From: Kushneria pakistanensis
GTDB lineage: Bacteria > Pseudomonadota > Gammaproteobacteria > Pseudomonadales > Halomonadaceae
DNA length: 64,000 nucleotides
Direction of reading: 5' to 3'
NCBI RefSeq assembly: GCF_014652795.1
Contig: NZ_BMZM01000003.1
Location: forward strand, 62,001-126,000
Shown: in pieces, positions 50,493-51,091 of the stretch
Position numbering within the stretch: position 1 is the first letter of the stretch
How the letters are laid out: every line of letters starts with the position of its first letter
Program-made: the position numbers and the translations under genes
The notes under the pieces: model-generated
Seen by the model: the letters and a program-made list of their open reading frames with translations, nothing else
Told to the model about the DNA's origin: nothing
Databases searched by the model: none

Positions 50493-50573
50493 GCCGGAGT
50501 GAAATAAGCAGGGAGCTGACGGCTATTTTGTTCGGATAGAGCGCGCCGGAATTTTTGGCAGGCGCCAGACGTC
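50493..50573 (-). repeat. Diverged partial copy of the 133-bp unit
   Basis: GAAATAA-CAGGGA, GACG, CGGA-AG and GCGCCAGACGT are shared in order with the full units, with substitutions and small indels between them. It is the outermost and oldest-looking copy of the array. Confidence 0.6.
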
Positions 50574-50597
50574 AAAAAGCCGACCCTGAGGTCGGCT
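50574..50597 (-). terminator. Array terminator copy 1 (most distal from the tRNA)
   Basis: On the minus strand: AGCCGACC, loop TCAG, GGTCGGCT, TTTTT. It has the same loop as the copy nearest the tRNA. Confidence 0.8.
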
Positions 50598-50705
50598 AAA
50601 TAAACGGTTTGTCGCTGGCAGCGGGGGCCGCTGGTGTTGAAATAAACAGGGAACCGACGACCGCTCGGACAGCAGGATATGGGACTGCACCCAAACGCCA
50701 GACGT

Positions 50706-50730
50706 AAAAAAGCCGACCCCAAGGTCGGCT
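50706..50730 (-). terminator. Array terminator copy 2
   Basis: Minus strand: AGCCGACC, loop TTGG, GGTCGGCT, TTTTTT. The loop differs from copies 1 and 4. Confidence 0.8.
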
Positions 50731-50838
50731 AAATAAACGGTTTGTCGCTGGTGGCGGGGGCCGCTGGTGTTGAAATAAACAGGGAACCGACGACCGCTCG
50801 GACAGCAGGATATGGGACTGCACCCAAACGCCAGACGT

Positions 50839-50863
50839 AAAAAAGCCGACCCCAAGGTCGGCC
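50839..50863 (-). terminator. Array terminator copy 3
   Basis: Minus strand: GGCCGACC, loop TTGG, GGTCGGCT, TTTTTT. One outer pair changes from A-T to a G-T wobble. Confidence 0.8.
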
Positions 50864-50971
50864 TGATAAACGGTTTGTCGCTGGCAGCGGGGGCCGCTGG
50901 TGTTGAAATAAACAGGGAACCGACGACCGCTCGGACAGCAGGGTATGGGGCTGCACCCAAACACCAGACGT

Positions 50972-50996
50972 AAAAAAGCCGACCCTGAGGTCGGCT
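50972..50996 (-). terminator. Intrinsic terminator of tRNA-fMet (array copy 4)
   Basis: Minus strand: AGCCGACC, loop TCAG, GGTCGGCT, TTTTTT. It begins 18 nt after the tRNA CCA and is the first terminator met by the transcript. Confidence 0.9.
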
Positions 50997-51014
50997 AAAT
51001 AAACTGTTTGTCGA

Positions 51015-51091
51015 TGGTAGCGGGGGCCGGATTTGAACCGACGACCTTCGGGTTATGAGCCCGACGAGCTACCAGGCTGCTCCACCCCGCA
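51015..51091 (-). tRNA. Initiator tRNA-Met (CAT)
   Basis: This 77-nt tRNA on the minus strand has anticodon CAT in GGGCTCATAACCC, the three consecutive G-C pairs in the anticodon stem (GGG/CCC) that mark initiators, D-loop GCAGCCTGGTAGCTCG, T-arm GGTTCAAATCC and an encoded CCA. Positions 1 and 72 are T and T, a mismatch, where E. coli has C-A; lack of a 1-72 pair is needed for formylation. It is followed by a terminator and the 133-bp array. Confidence 0.96.

Follow-up and report, generated by a model that had tools for sequence, protein, structure and literature searches.

A tandem array of tRNA-fMet-derived units with a replaced T-loop behind an initiator tRNA gene of Kushneria pakistanensis and other Halomonadaceae

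The tRNA-fMet locus of Kushneria pakistanensis

The window analysed here, a stretch of 64,000 nucleotides from Kushneria pakistanensis, contains a single tRNA gene, identified by ARAGORN as tRNA-Met(cat) and matched by the Rfam tRNA model at 61.3 bits. It is flanked by an upstream gene for a DUF349 protein and a convergent downstream gene for a DUF3750 protein, the open reading frame of which ends at 50456, directly past the array described below. On the 3′ side of the tRNA gene lie three units of 133 bp, each composed of the 3′ part of tRNA-fMet with a replaced T-loop, the tRNA trailer, and a terminator-like hairpin (Table 1). The array is the only one that TRF reports in the whole window (50563-51029, period 133, 3.5 copies, 93% matches).

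An initial annotation, made from the sequence alone, had described a tRNA-fMet gene followed by an array of 133-bp period, and this outline is borne out. Encoded CCA-like ends are read at 50616, 50749, 50882, and 51015, with only the last belonging to an intact tRNA, and the T-loop of the units is indeed replaced, by 19 nt between GGTCGTCGGTTC and GCGGCCCCCGC. Read on the minus strand, a unit consists of a spacer, GGTCGTCGGTTC, the 19-nt insert CCTGTTTATTTCAACACCA, GCGGCCCCCGCTGCCA (ending in the variant CCACCA in unit 2), the trailer, and the hairpin GCCGACC-GGTCGGC with a T run. The units retain both T-stem strands, the acceptor 3′ strand, the CCA, the trailer, and mostly the terminator, without the 5′ half of the tRNA. 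A match between CTGGTGTT and AACACCAG, claimed as a pairing in the copy nearest the tRNA, is present in that unit only, the other two having CTGGCGTT. The diverged fifth part that had been placed at 50493-50573 is weak: an insert-like GTCAGCTCCCTGCTTATTTCACTCCGGCG is readable at ~50520-50492, beyond the fourth hairpin, but nhmmer with the core model gave no match to 50493-50573 at E<=0.001.

A consensus scan of 50300-51300 called one promoter, TTGACA-16-TAAGAT, against a shuffle expectation of 0.4, and no promoter inside the array. The same scan called three terminators (mean shuffle expectation 0.9), the first of which, after tRNA-fMet, is strong in appearance. Four had been annotated; the fourth hairpin (~50597-50575) is there but its T run is broken by a G, and it was not called. 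A GC-rich hairpin with a T run follows the tRNA and each unit, three of the four being called in the window and the last having its run broken.

Table 1. Features of the tRNA-fMet locus (positions within the window)
Feature	Position	Strand	Basis
Promoter-like site of the tRNA gene (TTGACA-16-TAAGAT)	51106..51133	-	consensus scan
Intact tRNA-fMet(CAT) with encoded CCA	51015..51091	-	ARAGORN, Rfam
Trailer of the tRNA with the first intrinsic terminator (stem 50996-50977)	50972..51014	-	consensus scan
Unit 1: spacer and tRNA-like core (50928-50882), T-loop insert 50916-50898	50882..50971	-	sequence reading, R1
Unit 1 trailer and terminator (stem 50864-50843)	50839..50881	-	consensus scan
Unit 2: spacer and tRNA-like core (50795-50749), T-loop insert 50783-50765	50749..50838	-	sequence reading, R1
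Unit 2 trailer and terminator (stem 50730-50711)	50706..50748	-	consensus scan
Unit 3: spacer and tRNA-like core (50662-50616), T-loop insert 50650-50632	50616..50705	-	sequence reading, R1
Unit 3 trailer and terminator-like hairpin, T run interrupted	50573..50615	-	sequence reading; not called by scan
Diverged remnant of a further unit, insert-like GTCAGCTCCCTGCTTATTTCACTCCGGCG readable	50479..50572	-	sequence reading; no nhmmer match at E<=0.001

Elsewhere in the genome, the second tRNA-fMet gene (G000:C5, L002) has no such unit in the ~540 nt examined downstream. When the tails of 60 tRNA genes of this genome were compared over 18 nt with shuffled controls, only two tRNA-Gly copies (18/18, from remnants in one cluster) and the fMet gene of the window (14/18, best shuffle 12) stood out; an earlier 13-mer test was too blunt, leaving the fMet array itself unflagged. 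The tRNA-Gly remnants are two 3′ ends located between the tRNA genes of a Glu/Gly cluster (L247, G000:C3:646103-646254).

Spread in the Halomonadaceae and relatives in the order

The initial annotation had proposed a comparison across Halomonadaceae genomes, with its reading depending on the presence of repeats in relatives, and relatives do carry them. A first DNA search of 58 genomes, including the one studied here, found the same replaced T-loop in other genera, with insert-bearing units in 14 of 37 family genomes, for each of which one or more loci, though not always both fMet genes, were read. A sequence-only model of the 46-nt core, built from 25 sequences and termed R1, matched 102 of the 275 genomes of the family at E<=0.01; at the stricter E<=0.001, 85 remained, spread over 12 of 24 genera. 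Seventeen genomes gave matches at E 0.001-0.01 only; one fMet locus was read in two of them (G002 and G035) and held no unit, and the remaining matches in this range were taken for tRNA matches. Because 190 of the 275 family genomes have no R1 match at E<=0.001, the element is dispensable over evolution. Searched across 390 genomes of the order, R1 matched eight at E<=0.001, all of them Halomonadaceae. Likewise, a pattern scan of contigs yielded 34 stretches, all from record genera under Halomonadaceae (Halomonas, Vreelandella, Billgrantia, Kushneria, Litchfieldella, Onishia, Modicisalibacter, Franzmannia, and Halovibrio).

From 78 of the 85 R1 genomes (G089, G093, G117, G129, G134, G138, and G242 being left out), we assembled a set of 80 loci, which hold one unit (37 loci), two (23), three (13), four (6), or five (1). 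A pattern search found the intact tRNA in 73 of the 80 loci, where the units lie on the same strand as the tRNA. The first unit starts 131-190 nt past the tRNA start, except in G095, G113, G163, and G195 (243-272 nt). Of 134 full-length units, 108 have a terminator-like hairpin no more than 75 nt from the CCA; the corresponding figures are 73 of 73 for tRNAs and 12 of 612 for random windows. Among the 26 full-length units lacking one, 23 stand last among the full-length units at their locus. The stem sequences vary among lineages yet remain hairpins. Additionally, a terminator-like hairpin near GGCAGATCAGTAACTTACTGATCTGCC recurs with small changes behind tRNA-fMet or its units (L050, L069, L077, L132, L253, and L272), and two contigs of one genome (G043, C85 and C280; L026) carry tandem, intact-looking tRNA-fMet genes with a period of ~127 bp.

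The 3′ parts of the units evolve in concert with the neighbouring tRNA. The 45 nt after the tRNA and those after its own first unit are identical at a median of 89% of positions (71 loci), compared with 67% for trailers of other genomes, whether within the genus or outside it, although G073 (0.44) and G113 and G140 (both 0.49) are exceptions and at least 12 of the 71 loci have a trailer identity of 0.58 or less. The variable letter Y of GGYCCCC agrees between the tRNA and its own first unit in 56 of 61 cases, and the letter R of GTCRTCGG in 50 of 50. Tandem copies would arise, and stay alike, through unequal exchange at the shared tRNA 3′ end, and the T-loop would be the natural border of such exchange, as the tRNA would not survive an exchange that spanned it. 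The array presents a case of concerted evolution that acts on one side of the T-loop and halts there.

In other families of the order, copies of tRNA-fMet occur in which the insert sits in the anticodon loop rather than in the T-loop; they are not known under a published name. R2, a model of such copies built from 12 sequences, matched 16 of 390 order genomes, from 13 genera and eight families, at E<=1e-4, with four of the 16 (G014, G037, G039, and G041) having supplied model sequences. An intact tRNA-fMet was found upstream by pattern in nine of the 13 R2 loci read, L249, L254, L255, and L272 being those without. These units resemble the Halomonadaceae array in the tRNA concerned, in their place, and, in several genomes, in the terminators between units; they differ in that the T-loop is normal in most cases read, and those of G529 amount to an almost complete tRNA-fMet in which the anticodon loop is replaced. 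An anticodon-loop pattern blind to the insert gave 16 matches in seven of 322 genomes, of which 13 begin with AGCTCT, GGCTCT, AACTCT, or ATCTCT and the rest with AGCGCT or GGCACT.

The start of these inserts, like RGCTCTT, resembles GCTCTTG, with which the consensus of the T-loop insert begins. Against eight anticodon-loop inserts, the summed local score of this consensus is 43 (33.2 when shuffled, with 2 of 2000 shuffles reaching it), and with one insert per family it is 23 (16.4 when shuffled, 5 of 2000 reaching it), in a comparison conceived after the sequences had been seen. Judging from such short sequences, the two kinds of insert may share an origin.

Several loci have further peculiarities. 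In G285 (L132 and L133), G143 (L159), and G263 (L249), the array-side tRNA-fMet copy is without its 5′ half, which is replaced at the anticodon loop in the manner of the boundary of an integrated element, and the array remains beside the tRNA 3′ half. The G285 array contains an insertion-sequence-like stretch bounded by CTAG on either side (L133, ~950-1810). Long, hairpin-rich, GCGAAGCCCGAAGGGGC-like inserts occur inside or beside tRNA-fMet 3′ copies at L253, L264, and L017; they are outwardly like the E. coli rtT insert, and the Rfam RtT model gave no match to them. In another family (G042, L081), a broken tRNA-fMet 3′ copy behind tRNA-fMet reads GGTCGTCGGTTCGCTCTTGGT, so that a beginning of the same insert may occur outside the Halomonadaceae.

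The T-loop insert and its interpretation

Across units, the T-loop is replaced by a conserved insert of 15-19 nt. Units with a randomised insert score a median of 12.5 bits with R1 (385 units) and would mostly be missed, so that sampling by R1 is biased towards conserved inserts. We therefore used a pattern blind to the insert, TCGGTTC-N{9,39}-GGYCCCCGCTACC, which requires exact tRNA flanks and excludes the tRNA itself by gap length. It matched 55 of 275 family genomes, with no match for the reversed-pattern control among the matches listed. We re-extracted 85 of its matches, from 56 of the 80 loci (G117, which has a longer insert, being left out). Despite the permitted range of 9-39, their gaps measure 20 (61 matches), 21 (16), 19 (5), or 17 (3). 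CT occupies insert positions 2-3 in 84 of the 85, GC ends the insert where the tRNA has CC in 84, and TTTCA occurs within it in 59.

Among first units of this insert-blind set, compared between genera (1038 pairs), insert identity is 0.644 against 0.469 when shuffled, whereas the spacer stays at 0.464 against 0.450, measured as the best ungapped identity at shifts of up to 6. Gapped global alignment points in the same direction (for the insert 0.684, shuffled 0.545; for the spacer 0.586, shuffled 0.557; 1971 pairs), but its contrast is small because the shuffled baselines are high, and for this reason the ungapped and shift-tolerant measures were used. Without gaps or shifts, the identity between genera is 67% for 18-nt inserts and 29% for 18 nt of spacer (1058 pairs), a comparison that unduly favours the insert because it was restricted to inserts of equal length. 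Within genera, the insert exceeds the spacer in 22 of 31 disjoint pairs selected by spacer identity (means 0.83 and 0.79; Wilcoxon p 0.028), which is weak support: of the 18 closest pairs (spacer identity of ~0.80 or more), nine favour the insert, and all nine contrary pairs fall here. The between-genus shift-tolerant test and this within-genus split point in opposite ways. On balance, selection is the likelier keeper of the insert.

Predicted structure sets the insert apart as well. Over 56 units, predicted unpairedness peaks in the insert (0.58 against 0.34-0.40 elsewhere, rising to 0.8 at TTTCA), and GCGG and CCGC are predicted to pair around an open YCC; such a small hairpin is possible because the unit-specific GC adjoins GG (84 of 85). 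The folding of units and the covariation test that the initial annotation had proposed did not reveal a conserved whole-core structure, as single-sequence folds differ among clades, and a swap test of the upstream hairpin was weak (-8.70 against -7.94 kcal/mol, mean rank 0.44; within-genus swap -8.90). Some clades carry an 8-bp inverted repeat, GAACCGAC/GTCGGTTC. Folding of 400 nt of the array gave a more favourable result than its shuffles (z -3.62), an excess that we tentatively put down to the terminators and GC-rich inverted repeats.

We give about an even chance to the array being a row of tRNA-fMet-derived, rtT-like units that are read through into regulatory or decoy RNA. RNA polymerase from the tRNA promoter would sometimes pass the first terminator and transcribe one or more units, and the enzymes that process tRNA 3′ ends would cut the transcript back to the encoded CCA, in the way proposed for rtT in the rttR annotation. 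The product would be an RNA of ~130 nt, with a mostly unpaired, pyrimidine-rich CTnTnGTTTCA ahead of a GCGG-YCC-CCGC hairpin and an ACCA end, and would act as a regulatory or decoy RNA on a putative partner. Weighing against this account are the apparent strength of the first terminator with no internal promoter called, the many family genomes that do without the element, the hairpin-less last units, the weak within-genus signal, the lack of a conserved whole-core structure, the missing RtT match, and the loci with dissimilar trailers. The suggestion in the initial annotation that structured tRNA-derived RNAs are possible is upheld as an idea. Its view of the locus as a decayed, homogenised fMet array stands in part: the units are of fMet origin and homogenised, but they are not merely decayed, because the T-loop insert is conserved between genera where spacers are at the shuffled level. 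Since relatives carry the same altered piece, the array is probably a maintained RNA element rather than the product of simple decay.

The step from a conserved insert to a regulatory RNA is one that we infer, and its chief rival is neutral concerted evolution: a tRNA 3′ fragment that was duplicated locally early in the family and has been shuffled by unequal exchange, with nothing selected. The numbers of units per locus (1-5), the patchy presence in the family, the frequent lack of terminators in last units, the differently built arrays of two Onishia taeanensis strains, and the close relatives without excess insert conservation (9 of 18 pairs) all suit this account. Nevertheless, we consider it rather unlikely. 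Conservation of the insert between genera beside a spacer at the shuffled level, also in the insert-blind set, is at odds with it, and exchange with the tRNA cannot conserve a sequence that the tRNA does not contain. Nor is repair of the insert from a copy elsewhere evident, because R1 finds only three copies in the genome, all within the array, leaving no other core as a template.

An improbable alternative is fail-safe termination, in which the row of terminators shields the convergent DUF3750 gene against strong transcription of the tRNA and the tRNA parts are passengers. The abundance of hairpins on the units, their persistence as hairpins while stems diverge by lineage, and the end of the convergent frame just past the array would fit this purpose; the conserved T-loop insert is left unexplained by it, many relatives manage with no unit and a single terminator, and the last units, closest to the downstream gene, are those most often without a terminator. 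Still less probable is an origin of the units as integration-site remains or decoys, through elements that entered tRNA-fMet and duplicated its 3′ part. The replaced 5′ halves in G285, G143, and G263 are like the edge of an inserted element, but the array there lies against the tRNA 3′ half, in the position expected of the host side; the units carry the trailer and terminator of the host, neither of which would be copied by integration; the array has no phage or plasmid match at E<=1e-5; and its flanks are the DUF349 and DUF3750 genes rather than a mobile element. Tandem repeats are prone to mis-assembly, but an assembly artefact is extremely improbable given that units of lineage-specific period and sequence recur across numerous independent assemblies, some of them single-contig (G001, G020, and G257).

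To the reading of the array as a source of regulatory or decoy RNA we add, tentatively and as a possibility only, a broader one: a gammaproteobacterial class of pseudo-tRNAs behind tRNA genes, in which the anticodon loop (order-wide) or the T-loop (Halomonadaceae) would be swapped for a related, GCUCUU-containing single-stranded module, selected, tandemly repeated, and released by tRNA processing, with rtT as a distant member.

Comparison with rtT and other known systems

A search of titles and abstract openings, with subscription journals mostly outside its coverage, returned nothing on the array. Its closest counterpart is found in E. coli K-12, where rttR (1287236 to 1287066) lies directly 3′ of tyrV (1287328-1287244) and ends at the encoded CCA. 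According to our reading of that locus (L248), the tRNA 3′ end repeats every 178 nt past tyrV and AAGGTTCG, the other half of the T-arm, stands ~67 nt ahead of each copy, so the T-loop is interrupted there too by foreign sequence, which is followed by AATCCTTCCCCCACCACCA. The parallel with E. coli tyrT drawn by the initial annotation is therefore apt. Both loci have tandem units 3′ of an intact tRNA and on its strand, ending in the tRNA 3′ end with an encoded CCA, with a repeated trailer and a tRNA-derived part in which the T-loop is interrupted. The E. coli repeats differ in their tRNA (Tyr), their 178-bp period, and their longer, structured insert; the Rfam structure shows a GGGGAAGGAU strand paired with the 3′ end, and a hairpin with a T run is not apparent by eye. 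Rfam, at gathering thresholds and at E<=1, matched only tRNA in the window and gave no match for RtT (RF00391), whereas the positive control, L248, gave four at 133-138 bits. As far as sequence allows, the array is rtT-like by design, yet not a member of RF00391.

The initial annotation had also invoked E. coli metZWV, which consists of tandem functional tRNA-fMet genes. Tandem tRNA-fMet sequences are common to both, but the parallel is a misfit because ARAGORN and Rfam find only one intact tRNA here. The 3′ETS of E. coli leuZ, a tRNA spacer, reportedly sponges sRNAs and would resemble the proposed product as a processed, tRNA-adjacent spacer RNA able to act in trans; it differs in being single copy and is not known to derive from a tRNA. 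A pseudo-tRNA of Bacillus cereus is described as a non-translating tRNA-like gene with a deletion phenotype (PMC3399842) and, as portrayed there, is single, flanks an island, and is without tandem 3′ fragments. For E. coli datA, tRNA read-through transcription with a biological effect has been described (PMC10950094), and E. coli rtT itself is described as a stable RNA released in tRNA processing (PMC4986893).

Until now, rtT of E. coli has stood as a curiosity among tRNA operons. Were it joined by a second lineage, which uses another tRNA and a short conserved loop insert, ‘tRNA-derived downstream repeats’ would become a general class, the natural variants of which let conserved parts be compared, and the array lets one ask whether transcription of an initiator tRNA also yields a regulatory RNA. 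The array is real, occurs widely within a single family, and shows more conservation than simple decay would lead one to expect; among known systems, it is nearest to rtT.
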